Origin: Terriglobia bacterium
GTDB lineage: Bacteria; Acidobacteriota; Terriglobia; Terriglobales; Acidobacteriaceae
NCBI GenBank assembly: GCA_021325035.1
Contig: JAJPHW010000062.1
Coordinates: 1 to 64,000, forward strand
Length of the DNA: 64,000 nt
Reading direction: 5' to 3'
Position numbers and translations under genes: made by a program
Shown here: piece by piece, positions 2,497 to 33,083 of the stretch
How positions within the stretch are numbered: position 1 is the stretch's first letter
Layout: each line of letters starts with the position of its first letter
The notes under the pieces: model-generated
Told to the model about the DNA's origin: nothing
Databases searched by the model: none
What the model saw: the letters and a program-made list of their open reading frames with translations, nothing else

Positions 2497-4821
2497 ATGG
2501 CTGACGCACCCAAACTCGTAAACCTCACGGTGGATGGCAAGAAGCTCACCGCTCCGGCAGGATCGTTGCTGATTGATGCCTGCAAAAACGTTGGCATCGA
2601 AGTTCCTTCGTTCTGCTATTACCCGAATCTGTCTCTGCAGGGCGCGTGCCGCATGTGTCTGGTCCGTGTGGAGAAGATGCCCAAACTGCAAACGGCCTGC
2701 ACCACGGTCGTGGCTGAGGGCATGGTCGTCGCAACCGACAACGAAGAAATCAAACAGGCACGTAAAGCCATGGTCGAGTTGCTGCTGGGAAACCATCCGC
2801 TCGATTGCCCGGTTTGCGACGCAGGCGGCGAGTGCGAGTTGCAGGACATGACGTTCTCCTACGGTGCAGCGGAATCGAAGTACATGGAGCCGAAGAACCA
2901 CAAAGACGAGCAGCAATGGTCGCCGGTGGTTTTCTTCGACCGTCCGCGCTGCATCTTGTGCTATCGCTGTGTGCGTGTCTGTGGCGAAGGCATGGATGTC
3001 TGGGCACTCGGTGTGCAGAATCGCGGCGTGAGCTCGATCATTGCGCCAAACAAGGAAGACCATTTGGAGTGCGAAGAGTGCGGCATGTGCATTGACATTT
3101 GCCCCGTTGGCGCGCTCACCTCCGGCGCTTACCGCTACAAGACTCGTCCCTGGGAGATGAACCATGTGGGGACGACTTGCGCTCACTGCGCAGACGGCTG
3201 CAAAACGACTTTGGGCGTGCGACGTGCCGACGAAGGCATGGAGATCGTTCGCGGCGACAATCGCGACAAGAGCGGCATCAACAACGACTTCTTGTGCATG
3301 AAGGGCCGCTACGCTTTTGACTTTGCCAATCATGAAGACCGCCTGACCCAGCCCCTGATTCGCAAGAACGGCAAGCTCACACCCTCGACATGGGAAGAGG
3401 CGTTTGAGCTGGTAGGGAAAAAGCTGAATGAAGTTCGCATGCGCGATGGCGGATCAGCCATCGGTGTAATTGGCTCAACCCATACCACGAACGAAGAAAA
3501 TTATTTGCTCCAGAAGTTTGCCCGCGCGGTACTCGAGAGCAACAACATTGACCACCATCGCACCGCTGACTTCCCTGCCCTGGCCGCAGTACTCAGCGGC
3601 AAACAGGAAATCACCGCCAGCATGCGCGATGTGTACAACGCACCGGCGATTCTGCTGATTGGGAACGATCCGACCGAGCAGCATCCGTTGCTTGCCTGGC
3701 AAATTCGCAACAATGTCCGTCTCCACGGCGCGAAGCTTCACATTATCAATTCAGAGCCGATCAAACTGCGCCGTCAGGCAACAAGCTTCACACAGATTCC
3801 TGTAGGTGCGGAACTGAACGCAGCTTCATTCCTTGCCGGAGATGATTCTGCCCTGAATGCAATCACCGCTTCCGCCAGCCGCGAAAACTGGGCTGCATTG
3901 CGCAACCAACTCCGAAACACGGAGAACCTCGTCATCATTTTTGGTTCCGAGATTCGCGGCGCAGCCGTAACGGCTGTAACGCATTTAGCTTCGAGCATTT
4001 CTGGCGCAAAAGTAATCGCTCTCGCTGACTACGCGAACTCTCGCGGGGCTTCCGACATGGGTTTATATCCCGATTTGCTTCCGGGATATCATCCGGCAGC
4101 CAAGAGCGGTCTGACGCTGCCCCAAATGGCAGAGAATGCAAAATCTGGCAAATTGAAGGCGCTCTACGTGGTTGGCTCGAATCCGCTGGCGCGGTTTCAT
4201 CTCGACTCGCAGATTTTCGCGGGAACATTTGTAGTGGTGCAAGACATGTTCCTGACTGAAACTGCGACGATTGCAGATGTGGTTTTACCGGCCGCCAATC
4301 TTTACGAGAAAACGGGCACGATCACCAACACTTGCGGCGACGTACAGATCGTGAAAAAAGCCAGCGAAGTCAACGGGCCGAAATCGGATTTTGAAATGAT
4401 CGTCCGCATCGCGGACGCCATGGGTTACGATGTACGCAATCTTGTTCCTTTCGGACGGGGCGAGACCGCGGACATGGGCCAATCGCGCGGAGCGCAATCC
4501 GGCGAGGCTGACCGTCATGCGGTATGGCTCCAGGCCAATAATCTTGAACCAAAGCTCAGCCCGTTCGATCCGATGGCGATTTTTGATGAGATTCAACGGC
4601 TTGTGCCGGGATATCGCGTATCACGCCTGAATCTGTTGTCGGGCAATGACGAGCACACACAGCTTTCGCAAAGCGGGCCAGGCGCAAAGCACGATCCCGC
4701 GCTGATTGTTCCCGCGCATGACAATTTATTTAGTTCGGGCACGCTGGGACGTTACTCGCGCGCCTTGAATTCCGTGATGGAAAATCGCAACCCGCAACCG
4801 GCAGAAGTGGCTGCCGACTAA
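2497..4821 (+). CDS. nuoG: NADH-quinone oxidoreductase subunit G (molybdopterin oxidoreductase family)
   Basis: N-terminal 2Fe-2S ferredoxin domain (CYYPNLSLQGACRMCLV), HPLDCPVCDAGGECELQ, 4Fe-4S motifs, molybdopterin domain. Start placed at ATG 2497 (MADAPKLVNLTVDG) rather than the longer ORF start 2413, which overlaps nuoF. Confidence 0.95.
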   Translation: MADAPKLVNLTVDGKKLTAPAGSLLIDACKNVGIEVPSFCYYPNLSLQGACRMCLVRVEKMPKLQTACTTVVAEGMVVATDNEEIKQARKAMVELLLGNHPLDCPVCDAGGECELQDMTFSYGAAESKYMEPKNHKDEQQWSPVVFFDRPRCILCYRCVRVCGEGMDVWALGVQNRGVSSIIAPNKEDHLECEECGMCIDICPVGALTSGAYRYKTRPWEMNHVGTTCAHCADGCKTTLGVRRADEGMEIVRGDNRDKSGINNDFLCMKGRYAFDFANHEDRLTQPLIRKNGKLTPSTWEEAFELVGKKLNEVRMRDGGSAIGVIGSTHTTNEENYLLQKFARAVLESNNIDHHRTADFPALAAVLSGKQEITASMRDVYNAPAILLIGNDPTEQHPLLAWQIRNNVRLHGAKLHIINSEPIKLRRQATSFTQIPVGAELNAASFLAGDDSALNAITASASRENWAALRNQLRNTENLVIIFGSEIRGAAVTAVTHLASSISGAKVIALADYANSRGASDMGLYPDLLPGYHPAAKSGLTLPQMAENAKSGKLKALYVVGSNPLARFHLDSQIFAGTFVVVQDMFLTETATIADVVLPAANLYEKTGTITNTCGDVQIVKKASEVNGPKSDFEMIVRIADAMGYDVRNLVPFGRGETADMGQSRGAQSGEADRHAVWLQANNLEPKLSPFDPMAIFDEIQRLVPGYRVSRLNLLSGNDEHTQLSQSGPGAKHDPALIVPAHDNLFSSGTLGRYSRALNSVMENRNPQPAEVAAD

Positions 4822-25639: not shown

Positions 25640-27709
25640 ATGTCCACCCAAGCGCGAACAAGCCGTTACGAAGCCGGGCAGCATATCGCTGAAACCATGC
25701 TCGGCCTTATTAGCGCGCGTGCGCCTTTACCCACCGTGCTCGATGCCTTGTGCCGCGGCATCGAAAAACATGATCCGGATTTACTATGTTCCGTTTTGTT
25801 GCTGGATAAAGATGGCGTCACGCTTCATCATGGCGCTGCCCCCAGTATTTCGCAGGAATACATAAAAAAGATCGACGGCTCGCAAATTGGACCAGATGTG
25901 GGGTCTTGCGGCACTGCTGCATACTTGAATCGCCCAGTCATCGTTTCCGATATCGCCAATGACCCGTTATGGGCAAATTACAGGCATCTGGCTTTACCGT
26001 ATGGGTTGCGAGCCTGCTGGTCATCGCCGATCACGAGCACAGAAGGCAAGGTGTTGGGCACTTTTGCGGTGTACTACCGGGAACCACGCAGCCCGGAACC
26101 ACGTCATCTTGACATCATCAGCCGAGCCGCACACCTGGCGGTATTGGCTATCGAGCATGATCGCGCCCGCTCCGAGCTCGCCTCCGCACAGGTCCGATAT
26201 CAAACGCTCGTGGAACGATTGCCGGCAATCACCTACATCGCAGAGCTTGGGACCAACGGTCCGTGGCATTATGTAAGCCCACAAATTGAATCAATTCTTG
26301 GCTTTACGCCGGGAGAGTGGCTTTCAAACCCCAACAATTGGATCGAACACATTCATGCGGAAGACCGTGGTATTGCGATGGCCGCCGAAGATTCCTTCGA
26401 GAGAAATCGCAAAGTATTCTTTGCCGAGTACAGGATGTTTGCCCGGGATGGGCGAATACTTTGGTTCCGTGATGAAGCTGTCCTGCTCGAACACGGGCCG
26501 GGACAAAAAACCACGATGCAGGGCGTTCTCTATGACATTACGGAACACAAAAATCTGGAAGAACAGCTTCGTCATTCCCAAAAGATGGAAGCGATCGGCC
26601 AGTTGGCGGGCGGCATCGCACATGATTTCAATAATCTGCTGATGCTTATTCAGGCCCATAACAGCCGGTTGCGAGAACGAATATCGTCCGATTTTGAAGC
26701 ACAACAAGATGCCCAACAAATCGAGCAAGCGGTGATTCGCGCGGCGGCCTTGACACGGCAATTACTGGCTTTCAGCCGCAAACAAGTGTTGCAACCTGCG
26801 GTGATCAACTTGAATACGATTGTGACAGATTCCGCGAAATTGCTGGAACGCCTGATTGAAAAAGGCGTTGAAATGGAAATCAGACTCGATCCAGCGCTCA
26901 ATCAAGTCAAAGCTGATCCAGTGCAGATGGAACAAATTATTTTTAACCTGGCGGTCAATGCGCGAGACGCGATGCCAAAAGGCGGCAAGTTAATTTTAGC
27001 GACCCGCAATACGGAAGTTAGTACATCCCGTGACCGGCGTGGTATGCCGCCGGGAGACTATGTTGTTTTGACCGTAACGGATACCGGAATCGGAATGGAT
27101 GCCTCGACGCAGGCGCACATCTTCGAACCATTTTTTACAACGAAAGACCCGGGGAAAGGCACGGGGCTAGGGCTGGCAACGGTATATGGCGTTGTACAGC
27201 AAACGGGCGGCTGGATATGGGTTTCGAGCGAGCTGGGGTTGGGAACAACTTTCGAAATTTTCTTCCCGCGTGCCGATGAGGCGCCCGAGCCGAAACCCGT
27301 AAAAACCTCCACCGGCATCAAGACTTCCATCAACGGCACGGAGACGATTTTATTAGTTGAAGATCAAGATGGGATTCGCGATATGGCCGCCGAGTTCCTA
27401 CGACGCAGCGGCTATCGAATTTTGAATGCAGAAGATGGAGCTAGAGCAATGGAAATCGCCAAGCAGCACAATGGCGACATACATCTCTTGATCACGGACA
27501 TGTCCATGCCAAACATGGGAGGCCGTGAGCTTGCTGCTCAACTCAGGCATTTGCGCCCGCAAACCAAGGTTTTATTCATGTCGGGCCATCCAGATCATAC
27601 TTCGCCAACGAACATCGCTTCTACCGATGCTCCCGTTTTGCAAAAGCCGTTCGCGCTTGACGAACTAGGGCAAAAAATTCGTGCGTTGCTCGATGCTGAG
27701 CCGCGGTAG
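25640..27709 (+). CDS. GAF-PAS hybrid sensor histidine kinase with C-terminal receiver domain
   Basis: GAF region (SCGTAAYLNRPVIVSDIANDPLW), PAS, HisKA (AGGIAHDFNNLL), HATPase (NLAVNARDAMP, GTGLGLATVYG), REC (ILLVEDQDGIRDMAAEFL ... LLITDMSMPNMGG). Confidence 0.95.
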   Translation: MSTQARTSRYEAGQHIAETMLGLISARAPLPTVLDALCRGIEKHDPDLLCSVLLLDKDGVTLHHGAAPSISQEYIKKIDGSQIGPDVGSCGTAAYLNRPVIVSDIANDPLWANYRHLALPYGLRACWSSPITSTEGKVLGTFAVYYREPRSPEPRHLDIISRAAHLAVLAIEHDRARSELASAQVRYQTLVERLPAITYIAELGTNGPWHYVSPQIESILGFTPGEWLSNPNNWIEHIHAEDRGIAMAAEDSFERNRKVFFAEYRMFARDGRILWFRDEAVLLEHGPGQKTTMQGVLYDITEHKNLEEQLRHSQKMEAIGQLAGGIAHDFNNLLMLIQAHNSRLRERISSDFEAQQDAQQIEQAVIRAAALTRQLLAFSRKQVLQPAVINLNTIVTDSAKLLERLIEKGVEMEIRLDPALNQVKADPVQMEQIIFNLAVNARDAMPKGGKLILATRNTEVSTSRDRRGMPPGDYVVLTVTDTGIGMDASTQAHIFEPFFTTKDPGKGTGLGLATVYGVVQQTGGWIWVSSELGLGTTFEIFFPRADEAPEPKPVKTSTGIKTSINGTETILLVEDQDGIRDMAAEFLRRSGYRILNAEDGARAMEIAKQHNGDIHLLITDMSMPNMGGRELAAQLRHLRPQTKVLFMSGHPDHTSPTNIASTDAPVLQKPFALDELGQKIRALLDAEPR

Positions 27710-27717
27710 CCCCACTC

Positions 27718-28389
27718 TTATTTTGCTTGTTCAGGCTTTTTCATAACTGCCAATAATCGCTGCGCCCGGGCTCGTGCCACATTCACGAGAGACGAATCCG
27801 CGGAAATTTTTTGCAAAACTGGAGTAAGGATATCTAATTCCCCAAGGCTTCCCCTGCTATTTTCCTCTTCTACAGTTTTGAGTTCGTCATCCAGCGCCAG
27901 CTTCTGATAGCGAAACGCATATTCCAGCCGTCTTTGGGACTCCAGCGTCATCGCAATCGATTGGAAAATCCGCGTCAAATCCTGTACTGCGGATATCGAG
28001 GAATAGTTGTAAGTCGCCGCTGTGCTGCGCCGCGAGTCTTTGTAGGTCAATGTTTTCTTGCCCATGACGGCGAGCTTCTTACCAGAATCAATTTGCCCCT
28101 CAAAATACTTTGCCTGGACTGCAAGCGCGAAAATACGCACACGCGTTTTCTCGCTGACGACAAAATCAAACCGATAAGGATCATCATCCGAATCTTTGGT
28201 GAGCTTACCGGTCGAGTCATAAGACGCCGCACCATCATCGGCAACGGAAAGAAAATAATGATCGGGATTTGAACCGGGAAAATCGCAAGTAAACGTTACG
28301 GTGGCTACATCCTTCTGTAGGGTTTGTTGGGAAAAAGATGCTGAGCAGAGTAAAAAAGTAAAAACTGCAACGGCCAATCGGCAACGCAT
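27718..28389 (-). CDS. Secreted hypothetical protein
   Basis: Signal peptide MRCRLAVAVFTFLLCSASFS; no recognised domain; start uncertain. Confidence 0.7.
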   Translation of the reverse strand: MRCRLAVAVFTFLLCSASFSQQTLQKDVATVTFTCDFPGSNPDHYFLSVADDGAASYDSTGKLTKDSDDDPYRFDFVVSEKTRVRIFALAVQAKYFEGQIDSGKKLAVMGKKTLTYKDSRRSTAATYNYSSISAVQDLTRIFQSIAMTLESQRRLEYAFRYQKLALDDELKTVEEENSRGSLGELDILTPVLQKISADSSLVNVARARAQRLLAVMKKPEQAK

Positions 28390-28403
28390 GAACTCAAATC
28401 CCA

Positions 28404-28907
28404 TCACAGCACAACAGCATGCTGTCGGGCCAGCGTAGCGGAGGTATGCAAATGGCAAATCGCAATCGCCAAGGCGTCAGCCGCATCCGGCGGTTCCGGA
28501 ATCTCCACCAATCGCAACAACCGCGCTACCATGTGCTGGACCTGCTGCTTCTCCGCGCGCCCATAACCCACTACGGCGGACTTGATGGTGAGAGGGGCAT
28601 ACTCCGCAACCGTAAGCCCCGCCGACGATGCGGCCAGCATGGCAACGCCCCGAACCTGCCCCAGCTTCAAAGCTGATTTTGCGTTCAGCGCGTAAAACAC
28701 ATCTTCAATGGCAACGTTGTCGGGCTGATGTTCCACAATGATTGCTCCCAATCGTTGAAAAATTGTGGACAGACGTTCAGGCAAGGATGTGCGCGAAGAA
28801 AGCTTTATAGCGCCGCAGGTCAGGCAGATCAGGCGATCATCATGACCGAGTTCGACTACACCGTAACCTGTATATTCCGTGCCGCAATCAATTCCAAGAA
28901 CCCGCAT
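28404..28907 (-). CDS. ruvC: Crossover junction endodeoxyribonuclease RuvC
   Basis: MRVLGIDCGTEYTGYGVVE, AIEDVFYALNAKSALKLGQVRGVAMLA, DAADALAIAICH. Confidence 0.96.
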   Translation of the reverse strand: MRVLGIDCGTEYTGYGVVELGHDDRLICLTCGAIKLSSRTSLPERLSTIFQRLGAIIVEHQPDNVAIEDVFYALNAKSALKLGQVRGVAMLAASSAGLTVAEYAPLTIKSAVVGYGRAEKQQVQHMVARLLRLVEIPEPPDAADALAIAICHLHTSATLARQHAVVL

Positions 28908-28961: not shown

Positions 28962-31163
28962 CTAGTTGTTCTGATCAAACAACTCAGAGCGGTCGATTTT
29001 CTCGCCCTTAAAAAATACGTCCGACACTCGTTCAATCGCGTTGATGTCTTCCAGAGGGTTTCCATCCACCAGCACTAAGTCTGCATCGTGCCCAGGCTGA
29101 ATTATGCCGATGTGATCATCGGCTCGAAGTGCGCGGGCTGCGTTGTAAGTTGCCGCCTGCAACGCTGCGGGAGCAGGAATCCCAGCACTGACCCACAACT
29201 CTACTTCATGTTGAACGGTAGGCCCGTGGATCACCAGATAGTTTCCCGCATCGCTCCCAGTTATCAGCGCAACACCCCGTTTATAGGCGTTTAGCAGGTT
29301 CTGCGTACCTATTTTCAAATCGAAGGGAAATTTTGCGATGCGTTCCCGCATTTCTTTCGACTCGTCGGAAGTCAAATCCTTTTCAGTTTGCGATAACAAT
29401 CCAGCCGGCCCCACTTGCTGCACCAGCGAACGTTTCAAGAGATCAGATTTCCCTGCCGCCAAATCTCGGAATGCTTCGCCCACACTCAATGTTGGATCAT
29501 AAAACGTCTTCTGAGCCACCATCTTGTCGAGCAGAGCTTCCGGAATCTGATCCCGAAACGATCCATGCTCAATCGAATCCGCTCCAGCCGCCAGAGCATC
29601 TCCCACGTCTCTGGTATCGCCGGTATGTACAGCCGCTGGAAGATGATCCGCGTGCGCCTGCTGAACAATGGCGTCCAGTAGCGCCACATCCATGCGGTTG
29701 TACACGATAGATCCGCCGCCCGATTCCATGATGGATTTCACACAATCCACACCCGCCTGCCGTACCTCATCCACCATGCGACGGGCCTCGTCTGCCGTCT
29801 TGGGTAAACGTACAAACTGCGCTTCAAATTGAGTTCGCATCGTTTGTGGCAGAGCTTTGAAGTATTCCGTCCCATGACCGCCCTCGGTCGTAAAAAGAGG
29901 CCCACAGGCATAAAGATACGAGCCTAGTCTCTCTCCACTGTTTACGATCGAGCGTACTTTGAGGCTCGCATCCAGAGGATCGCCCACGCTCCGCACGGAG
30001 GTGACGCCGCTATAAAGGTACGCGGCCAAGTGCCGTTCCATCTCCGCATTGATGTCGAACTTGTAATCGTCGGGATAGGACCCGCCCGGCGCCGCCAAGT
30101 GTACGTGAACATCAATTAAACCCGGCAGTACCGTCTTGCCTGCCGCTTCCAGCGGTGTTGCATTCACGCTTTTCGGATCAGGTCCAGATCCTTCATAAAC
30201 TTCAGCAATTTTTCCGCGGCGAATGAGTATGGCTCCTTGCTCGATGACACGGCCATCGCCGACGAAAATTCGCGCGCCACGAATCAGGTAATTCTCATTG
30301 CGCGCAAGCTGGCGTGCCAGGATCTTGGTTTTGGCAACGTTCTGCTTGGTGTGAGCCTGCCATGTGCCAAGCAAGAAGAAGGGCAGCAGCACCGCGACAA
30401 TCCACAGCTTTGCGGAGCCCTTAATTTTCTCTTCTTTTTCCCAGCGAAATAGTTTGTAGGAGATGAACAGGCCTAAAATAATCGTCAGAACCAGTGCGCC
30501 GGCAGCCTGATAGTTCGCAAAGAAATTCTCGCCACGCAACATCATGCCTTGCATACCCGAAACAAGATAAGTCGCGGGCAAAAACTGCGTCAGCGTCAGC
30601 AACCACGATGGAAATAGAGACGATGGAAATGTGGCACCGCTCAACAGCAGCATGGGCAAGTAAATCAGCTGCACGATGATCTGGCTTTCCTGCATCGAGT
30701 TGGCTACTGAAGCCAAAATCATCCCAATGGCGCGAAAGGCCATGATGCCCAGAGAAATAAAGAAGAAAATCGAAAGATAGCTCTGCGGCCAGGGCATGTT
30801 GTAGCCGAAATGCGCCACGGCAAACATGAACATCACGAATGGCATGAAGAGCAACCAGCCCGTGATGGTTGCTGCGACTAGAATCGGAGCCGGCGTGATG
30901 GGAGTAACTTTGTAGCGGCGCAAGACGTTGGCTTCGCGCTCCTGCACCGCGCGCATACCGGCACCAAACAAGCCATTTCCCAGAATTCCGAGGATCGTCA
31001 CCATGGTGACCACTTGCGTCATCGCACCGCCGCGGTCGCCGTGTAGAATCTGGCCAAATGTAACAAGAAAGATTAACGGAAAAAGATAGTTAAAGAAGAT
31101 GACGGACTTCTGGCGAAGCGCCAGCTTCAGATCCATCCTCGTAATGGCAAGATAACTTTTCAT
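28962..31163 (-). CDS. ABC-2 type transporter permease fused to amidohydrolase (imidazolonepropionase-like)
   Basis: Single 733-aa frame: N-terminal six-TM ABC-2 permease (residues ~1-240), a further TM (~251-270), then amidohydrolase with HVH, KSIMESGG, HTGDTRD, EHGS and GSDAGN metal-site motifs. Confidence 0.9.
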   Translation of the reverse strand: MKSYLAITRMDLKLALRQKSVIFFNYLFPLIFLVTFGQILHGDRGGAMTQVVTMVTILGILGNGLFGAGMRAVQEREANVLRRYKVTPITPAPILVAATITGWLLFMPFVMFMFAVAHFGYNMPWPQSYLSIFFFISLGIMAFRAIGMILASVANSMQESQIIVQLIYLPMLLLSGATFPSSLFPSWLLTLTQFLPATYLVSGMQGMMLRGENFFANYQAAGALVLTIILGLFISYKLFRWEKEEKIKGSAKLWIVAVLLPFFLLGTWQAHTKQNVAKTKILARQLARNENYLIRGARIFVGDGRVIEQGAILIRRGKIAEVYEGSGPDPKSVNATPLEAAGKTVLPGLIDVHVHLAAPGGSYPDDYKFDINAEMERHLAAYLYSGVTSVRSVGDPLDASLKVRSIVNSGERLGSYLYACGPLFTTEGGHGTEYFKALPQTMRTQFEAQFVRLPKTADEARRMVDEVRQAGVDCVKSIMESGGGSIVYNRMDVALLDAIVQQAHADHLPAAVHTGDTRDVGDALAAGADSIEHGSFRDQIPEALLDKMVAQKTFYDPTLSVGEAFRDLAAGKSDLLKRSLVQQVGPAGLLSQTEKDLTSDESKEMRERIAKFPFDLKIGTQNLLNAYKRGVALITGSDAGNYLVIHGPTVQHEVELWVSAGIPAPAALQAATYNAARALRADDHIGIIQPGHDADLVLVDGNPLEDINAIERVSDVFFKGEKIDRSELFDQNN

Positions 31164-31176
31164 GAGTACGCAGACA

Positions 31177-32100
31177 TCAATCCCTTAACCGTTTTCCTGT
31201 CATTTCGATAAAAACATCTTCCAATGTAGGTTTCTTCAACTGAACATCCACCAACTCCAGCCCGGCTTGATCAATCCATTTGATCAATTCAACCAGGGTG
31301 GTGGCTGGACGCTTCGAAATGACTACCAACGTTCGGCCAGTGTCATCCACGTTGCTCTCGATCATTTCGGCAAAGGCGGGACGTTGTGCCGGAATCGGCT
31401 TATCGCATGTGACCGAAATATGCGATGCGGCGCGGCTCTGCTGCTGCAAATTTTTCGGAGTGTCGAGTGCAATGATTTTTCCGGCATCCACAATCGCCAC
31501 ACGATCACACAAACGCTCTGCCTCTTCGATGTAATGGGTGGTCAGCAACACAGTGCGCTTCTCGCCACGCTGCTGCTCCAGCAATGTATGGATCTCGGCT
31601 CGTACCTGCGGATCAAGTCCTGTTGTCGGCTCATCCAGAAACAGCATGGATGGATCATTCACCAACGCCAAAGCGAGCGCCAGGCGCTGCTTTTGCCCGC
31701 CCGAAAGAGTTTCGTAGTAAGCATCGCGCTTTTCTTCGAGCTGCAAGCGCTTGAGCAGATCGTTCGAGTTCACTGTGCGGCTATAAAACGCGGAAAAAAG
31801 ATGGAGCGCTTCCTGCACACGCATCTTCCCCGGCAAATTGGTCGCCTGAAGACAAACGCCGATTCGGTCTTTAAGTTTTAGTGTCTGCTTTTCCGGGTCA
31901 AACCCTAGCACTCGCACATTTCCTGCCGTTCTCGGACGCAGCCCTTCAAGGATTTCGACTGTGCTGGTTTTTCCCGCGCCATTCGGGCCGAGCAGCCCAA
32001 ACACTTCGCCAGGCATGATCTCAAAATCAATGCCTTTTACAGCTTCGACATCTCCGTAGGCCTTGCGCAGACCCTGGACCACAATGGCTGGTTCACTCAT
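31177..32100 (-). CDS. ABC transporter ATP-binding protein (CcmA/DrrA-like)
   Basis: Walker A GPNGAGKTS, signature LSGGQKQRLALA, Walker B MLFLDEPTTGLDP; immediately upstream of the permease fusion. Confidence 0.96.
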   Translation of the reverse strand: MSEPAIVVQGLRKAYGDVEAVKGIDFEIMPGEVFGLLGPNGAGKTSTVEILEGLRPRTAGNVRVLGFDPEKQTLKLKDRIGVCLQATNLPGKMRVQEALHLFSAFYSRTVNSNDLLKRLQLEEKRDAYYETLSGGQKQRLALALALVNDPSMLFLDEPTTGLDPQVRAEIHTLLEQQRGEKRTVLLTTHYIEEAERLCDRVAIVDAGKIIALDTPKNLQQQSRAASHISVTCDKPIPAQRPAFAEMIESNVDDTGRTLVVISKRPATTLVELIKWIDQAGLELVDVQLKKPTLEDVFIEMTGKRLRD

Positions 32101-32265: not shown

Positions 32266-32712
32266 ATGCTCAAAACGCCAACTAAATCTGCTGTCAACGT
32301 TAGGCAGGTCGTGCCCTTCTTTCACGTGTCCAATATGGAGCAGTCGGTACGTTACTACACGGACGGCATCGGCTTCACCATGAAACACAAGTGGATCGTT
32401 GACGGCCAGCTGCGGTGGTGCTGGCTGGAACTCGGGGGCGCAGCCATCATGCTTCAGCAATTTCGTACCGAAGGCCATGACTCGTGGAAGCCTACAGGCA
32501 AGGCCGGCGAAGGCGTGGCTCTTTATTTCAATTGCGATGATGCCATCGCTTTTTATCACGACGTCAAATCTCGCCGAATCGAAGCATCGGAACCGCAAGT
32601 CGGCAATTCTATGTGGGAGACTTCCCTCTCCGACCCGGACGGTTATCGCATTAATTTCGTGAGTCCCACCGACGTGCCGGAAGATACGAAGCTATCGGAG
32701 ATAAAAGGCTGA
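32266..32712 (+). CDS. VOC (glyoxalase/bleomycin resistance) family protein
   Basis: VVPFFHVSNMEQSVRYYTDGIGFTMKHKW ... DPDGYRINFVSP. Confidence 0.88.
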   Translation: MLKTPTKSAVNVRQVVPFFHVSNMEQSVRYYTDGIGFTMKHKWIVDGQLRWCWLELGGAAIMLQQFRTEGHDSWKPTGKAGEGVALYFNCDDAIAFYHDVKSRRIEASEPQVGNSMWETSLSDPDGYRINFVSPTDVPEDTKLSEIKG

Positions 32713-32717
32713 ACAAC

Positions 32718-33083
32718 ATGCCTCCAACTTTGGCAAACGGAAAAATCTGTTATATCCAGATTCCGGCTACGGATATCGCGCAATCAGTGGAGTTTTACAA
32801 GAACGTCTTTGGCTGGGAGATCAGACAGCGGGGAGATGGATCATACGCCTTTGACGACGGCGTCGGACAAGTCAGCGGAACCTGGGTTCTCAATCGTCCG
32901 CCATCAACGCAACCCGGCCTGCTGATTTATGTAATGGTGGACAACGTTGCCGCCACCATACAACTCATCATCGCCAACGGCGGCGAAATTGCCCAGCCCA
33001 TAGGGGCCGATGCACCTGAAATTACGGCAAGATTCCGCGATCCGGGAGGGAATGTGCTTGGACTCTATCAAGAGCCCGGATGA
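32718..33083 (+). CDS. VOC family protein
   Basis: ICYIQIPATDIAQSVEFYKNVFGWEIRQ ... FRDPGGNVLGLYQEPG. Confidence 0.9.
   Translation: MPPTLANGKICYIQIPATDIAQSVEFYKNVFGWEIRQRGDGSYAFDDGVGQVSGTWVLNRPPSTQPGLLIYVMVDNVAATIQLIIANGGEIAQPIGADAPEITARFRDPGGNVLGLYQEPG

Follow-up and report, generated by a model that had tools for sequence, protein, structure and literature searches.

The window analysed here (64,000 nucleotides of contig JAJPHW010000062.1 from a Terriglobia bacterium) carries on its minus strand a single open frame of 733 aa (28962-31163) with matches to two Pfam domains, ABC2_membrane and Amidohydro_1. The frame opens with ATG, and its translation runs through 733 codons with no internal stop. 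A DrrA-like ABC ATPase gene (31177-32100, minus strand, 307 aa, Pfam ABC_tran), predicted to be the cognate one, lies upstream, with 13 bases between its end and the start codon of the fusion gene; an ATPase gene adjoins the permease gene in nearly every related locus with known flanks. Both basic claims of the first-pass annotation, that one 733-aa ORF joins an ABC-2 permease to a complete amidohydrolase and that the cognate ATPase gene is adjacent, are thus borne out.

The permease half (residues 1-245; 30429-31163, minus strand) comprises six DrrB-like TM helices and is matched by ABC2_membrane over residues 4-208 (70.1 bits against a gathering threshold of 26.9, E = 2.5e-19). The best NCBIfam models are drrB (TIGR01247) for the permease half and drrA for the ATPase, with both scores below the respective cut-offs (51.1 vs 223 and 256 vs 312). 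The protein combines six TM helices and a separate, adjacent ATPase gene with a seventh TM detected by hydropathy and AlphaFold2. The permease therefore appears to be DrrB-like in its working, without formal DrrB (TIGR01247) membership.

The fusion protein is single copy in its own 3.86-Mb genome, where the remaining matches are weak paralogs; the same genome encodes an amidohydrolase paralog (L003:346-2376) with an N-terminal extension of 265 residues. Directly downstream of the fusion gene, on the same strand, is a RuvC gene (28404-28907) that overlaps a 246-aa ORF (27718-28458) matching neither Pfam nor NCBIfam models. The window also encodes a hybrid histidine kinase (25640-27709) that combines GAF, PAS, HisKA, HATPase and response-regulator domains in one protein, and two adjacent glyoxalase/bleomycin-resistance-like genes (32266-33083) that are divergent from the ATPase gene. 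A gene of the DJ-1/PfpI family is found near the ATPase gene of the exporter in about 20 loci of family f6 (e.g. L098:5488-6012). Among the flanks of the related loci, no operon partner from which the cargo could be deduced is common across lineages.

Distribution of the fusion

Full-length in-frame matches, from about residue 1 to about residue 730, were identified in 51 of the 399 genomes of the class sample, including that of the window, and about two dozen further class matches cover the permease plus the first part of the hydrolase within a longer frame. The carriers in the same family (f1) are G766 (71% identity), G858 (67%), G773 (65%) and G770 (58%), and in another f1 genome, G808, the fusion is split over two contig ends. 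Identity is 44-61% in family f6 and 36% in family f5, and one genome from another class of the phylum (G732) has the fusion at 35%. Two families of the class carry the fusion widely. The f1 and f6 permeases (81 rows) form a single supported clade, in which the fusion occurs throughout and the domain-less members are nested; this rules out a one-off fusion. The G732 hydrolase is sister to the f1/f6 hydrolases, and those of f5 fall apart from it, in a tree with long branches. At one locus (L103 of G213, 2546-4737), the fusion is interrupted mid-hydrolase and falls into two ORFs, through either a sequencing error or fresh pseudogenization. None of 72,556 plasmid records covers 80% of the fusion protein in one place. 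A single wider contig scan yielded 2 matches and was insensitive, missing relatives at 60% identity that were found in the class sample.

These relatives also bear on whether two genes were joined by an assembly or sequencing artefact, an explanation to which we give practically no credence. The genome assembly is fragmented (232 contigs), and no support for an artefact was found, whereas the same in-frame joint, with identical linker length, recurs in more than 50 genomes; homologs with the same full-length frame rule the artefact out. Two of the caveats raised in the first-pass annotation fall away: a hidden stop or frameshift is answered by the uninterrupted frame and the recurrent joint, and the possibility that relatives always encode two separate proteins by the full-length frame in 50 other class genomes.

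The seventh helix and the hydrolase domain

Between the two domains lie a seventh TM helix (TM7, residues 249-272; 30348-30419, minus strand), conserved across the family, and a linker helix (residues 274-288; 30300-30344, minus strand) that carries R284 and R288. The family-mean hydropathy profile contains six TM regions and a seventh at about 251-269, and the AlphaFold2 model of the window protein (pLDDT 93.1, pTM 0.88, from an alignment of 62 relatives) has a helix at 249-272, a second one at 274-288 and then the hydrolase. Accordingly, the extra hydrophobic segment noticed in the first reading at about 251-268 is real. At this position, a score of 1.6 KD or more over 18 residues is reached by 82 of the 91 family members, among them domain-less permeases; because permeases with no fused domain have TM7 too, this helix is independent of the hydrolase. 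The linker (269-292) is 24 residues long in 72/72 fused members, with R284 present in all of them and R288 in 71/72.

Lysine and arginine residues are most frequent in the N-terminus (4.3 per protein in residues 1-20), the TM2-3 loop (about 5) and the TM6-7 loop (about 5.7), with 1-2 in the others, a pattern that places the N-terminus inside and, given the odd number of helices, would take the C-terminus out through TM7. Lysine and arginine are also frequent at 271-290, just after TM7, an ambiguous signal, so that the last loop cannot be placed by charge alone. Inspection by eye shows signal-peptide-like N-termini in 11 of the 15 free-standing amidohydrolases of these genomes. From sequence and model together, we strongly infer that the hydrolase domain most likely lies on the outer face. 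The earlier suggestion that a seventh TM places the hydrolase outside is thus retained as the most likely topology, but TM7 is not specific to the fusion protein. The K/R-rich stretch that directly follows segment 249-272 would also suit a re-entrant or membrane-surface helix and a cytoplasmic domain that processes cargo before export, in the manner of peptidase-containing ABC exporters; this arrangement is very improbable, given that the segment is a 24-residue hydrophobic helix in the AlphaFold2 model, conserved throughout the family, and that the relatives of the domain have signal-peptide-like N-termini.

The amidohydrolase domain (residues 291-733; 28965-30293, minus strand) consists of a beta-sandwich and a (beta/alpha)8 barrel, and is matched by Amidohydro_1 over residues 344-721 (109.2 vs 25 bits, E = 3.5e-31). 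The first-pass assignment to imidazolonepropionase-like enzymes has to be replaced: the TIGR01224 score is 47.6 vs a cut-off of 298, and the nearest structures in a Foldseek search are 2qs8, an Xaa-Pro dipeptidase (TMt 0.86), ADH3 (0.84) and Cc2672 (0.82), with which the sequence search concurs. The nearest named model, Xaa-Pro dipeptidase (NF051886), is below its cut-off as well (172 vs 500), and its substrate is not transferable. The domain is thus best described as a predicted prolidase/carboxypeptidase-like hydrolase, with Xaa-Pro dipeptidase and Arg/Lys carboxypeptidase as the nearest solved folds.

The subtype-I ligand set of such enzymes consists of HxH, a carboxylated Lys, His, His and Asp (PMC11342369), and all six are present in the window protein, so that the metal site is intact as originally claimed. 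By alignment, these are H353 and H355 of the HxH motif (30105-30107 and 30099-30101), K476, the predicted carboxylated bridging lysine (29736-29738), H513 (29625-29627), H533 (29565-29567) and D638, a metal ligand or catalytic residue (29250-29252), all on the minus strand. In addition, H430 of a GGH motif (29874-29876, minus strand) is a candidate contact for the substrate carboxylate, by analogy with His191 of AnOTA, which has this role among the related enzymes (PMC11342369). Known substrates in this group include Xaa-Arg/Lys or hydrophobic dipeptides, N-acyl-Pro and ochratoxin (PMC11342369). Because the site is complete, cleavage of an amide bond is the most likely reaction of the window protein, and we have moderate confidence in an amide substrate, as predicted from these residues.

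Repeated loss of the metal site and exchange of the putative outer domain

Of the 92 permease rows, 45 retain all six ligands (window included), 30 have lost at least one, 11 lack any extra domain, 3 carry a CIA30 domain, 2 carry an amidohydrolase and CIA30, and 1 is split. The CIA30 domain occupies the position of the hydrolase in relatives from f5 and f2, and follows the amidohydrolase in two f5 genomes; G732 also encodes permease, amidohydrolase and CIA30. Individual loci with CIA30 after TM7, alone or behind the amidohydrolase, are L052, L053 and L054 (f5 and f2) and L045, L046 and L067. Exporters of this permease family thus appear to have acquired a variety of predicted outer domains. 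Some relatives with no domain keep TM7 and the ATPase. In the window's own family, four loci (L040-L042 and L085; genus g11 and G762) retain TM7, have no hydrolase and are nested within the fused clade; these are most readily read as whole-domain losses.

Of the 30 ligand-losing rows, two differ at just one or two ligands; the other 28 (L047-L051, L068-L083, L086, L096, L101, L102, L104, L105 and L110) are clearly degenerate and remain in frame with no metal ligands. Most of these have the middle of the barrel deleted, for a total length of 564-733 aa. The losses mostly affect H353, H355, H430, K476, H513, H533 and D638: among the 28 members, H353 is kept in two, H513, H533 and D638 in one each, and H430 in none. 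R284, R288, T344, P347, G386, Q583, G647, G701 and G720 are kept in 28/28. On a quick tree built without bootstrap from 511 columns (the two HxH columns and 421-640 left out), the degenerate state requires 11 changes, of which well-supported branches impose at least 9; we read these changes as losses because six ligands are hardly ever regained. Hence the metal site has been lost in at least 9 independent lineages, with the fused domain kept in frame.

The degenerate domains show signs of constraint. In close pairs, dN/dS (Nei-Gojobori) is 0.09-0.41 for the degenerate hydrolase domain vs 0.06-0.25 for the intact one, values that are rough given that dS is often near or above 1; avoidance of misfolding could be the sole cause of this purifying selection. 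A shortened degenerate member (L049, 586 aa) is modelled by AlphaFold2 with pLDDT 85.7 and pTM 0.80, and its nearest folds are still amidohydrolases (TMt about 0.5). The loss of the metal site in 28 relatives that retain the linker, the arginines and the sandwich under purifying selection indicates that hydrolysis is generally not what keeps the fusion, and the pump probably gains something other than chemistry from the fused domain. A second role, independent of catalysis, is suggested by the rigid link and sandwich that these relatives retain. Conversely, every active-site residue is conserved in the 44 intact clade members, at 44-71% identity, which says that catalysis would be useful in these members without being a general need of the exporter.

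Two non-catalytic readings have to be weighed here. One is that the domain is a structural gate or cargo receptor with optional catalysis, turned into a pseudoenzyme at least 9 times, the barrel often partly deleted and the sandwich, linker and TM7 kept; this is a genuine possibility that we hold tentatively. The stricter one, that the domain is mainly a non-catalytic outer receptor or structural gate and that the activity of the intact members is a relic of their ancestor, would draw on the same independent losses with the fold, linker and sandwich retained, on the confident models of shortened versions and on dN/dS below 1. However, a relic would not explain the full active site of the 44 intact members, and whole-domain losses have occurred too, so that we regard it as quite improbable.

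Proposed working and relation to known systems

Many Acidobacteria encode a membrane export pump and a metal-dependent hydrolase in a single gene. We propose that its product serves as membrane component of a DrrAB-type ABC-2 exporter, which would be assembled from two fusion subunits and two molecules of the neighbouring ATPase, and that TM7 would bring the C-terminus to the outer face, tethering a metallo-amidohydrolase of the prolidase/carboxypeptidase/ochratoxinase group at the exit. The predicted-active hydrolase of the window protein may cleave an amide bond, probably freeing a C-terminal amino acid, in the exported or a nearby compound. The domain might also act without catalysis: relatives that lack the metal site keep the rigid TM7-helix-sandwich connection, through which it could serve in docking, dimerisation or gating. 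Such a DrrAB-type exporter, with an outer-face amidohydrolase likely active here and an additional catalysis-independent role, has in our estimate slightly better than an even chance of being correct. Confidence is weak to moderate that the hydrolase acts on the transporter's own cargo, as suggested by its fusion to the exporter, and that the domain has a structural role. The first-pass proposal that export is coupled to periplasmic hydrolysis gains no support in its stated form: the 28 degenerate relatives keep the domain under purifying selection with no catalytic residues, and others have shed it entirely, yet retain TM7 and the ATPase. Metal-site loss in many lineages argues against a central role of catalysis.

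Uncoupled co-localisation should also be considered, with the hydrolase an independent periplasmic scavenging dipeptidase and the exporter merely its membrane anchor. The free-standing relatives are mostly secreted-looking enzymes, permease-only relatives persist with no domain, and repeated loss of catalysis suits a dispensable rider; a loose anchor, however, needs neither a linker of constant length nor the near-invariant R284 and R288, which are present even in dead members, and we consider this explanation unlikely. The proposed exporter with a dual-role outer domain remains the preferred reading.

The open-licence literature searched describes few enzyme domains on ABC-2 permeases and yielded no account of an ABC-2/amidohydrolase fusion. 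The architecture can be called unusual, as the first-pass annotation had it, in this published sense, but not within the class, where it is widespread in two families. What is new is the ABC-2/amidohydrolase fusion itself, with the pseudoenzyme series as the more surprising part. The permease alone, with an active enzyme, with a dead and shortened enzyme, and with CIA30 in the presence or absence of the enzyme form a natural series that separates catalysis from mere attachment for an exporter, with natural instead of engineered variants. It also offers a definite substrate class to test (an amide or peptide with a C-terminal amino acid) for orphan exporters of soil bacteria.

Several known systems share parts of this organization. 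DrrA/DrrB-type ABC-2 drug exporters have the same two-gene layout of ATPase and six-TM permease, to which the fusion protein adds TM7 and the enzyme domain. The prolidase, Arg/Lys carboxypeptidase and ochratoxinase group (2qs8, 3mtw Cc2672, 3be7, 8ihq ADH3 and 4c5y) is alike in fold and in all six subtype-I metal ligands, and 2qs8 and ADH3 also have the GGH motif, whereas the enzymes compared are 22-28% identical in structural alignments and have no transporter attached. In peptidase-containing ABC exporters, a hydrolase and an exporter likewise share one chain; the C39 domain of these proteins is N-terminal, cysteine-based and cytoplasmic, and the exporter has another ABC exporter fold, in contrast to the C-terminal metalloenzyme, predicted to lie outside, on an ABC-2 permease in the window protein. 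The nearest precedent is the ABC-2/peptidase M1 fusion of Myxococcus: exporters of TC 3.A.1.145, such as Q1D520 of Myxococcus xanthus, have 13 predicted TMs, and an amino-acid-like export product has been suggested for them (PMC3924187). The two systems are alike in combining an ABC-2 permease and a C-terminal hydrophilic metallopeptidase in one chain, and differ in that the window protein has 7 TMs and an amidohydrolase in place of 13 predicted TMs and an M1 domain, with no Pfam match to Peptidase M1 at E 0.001.
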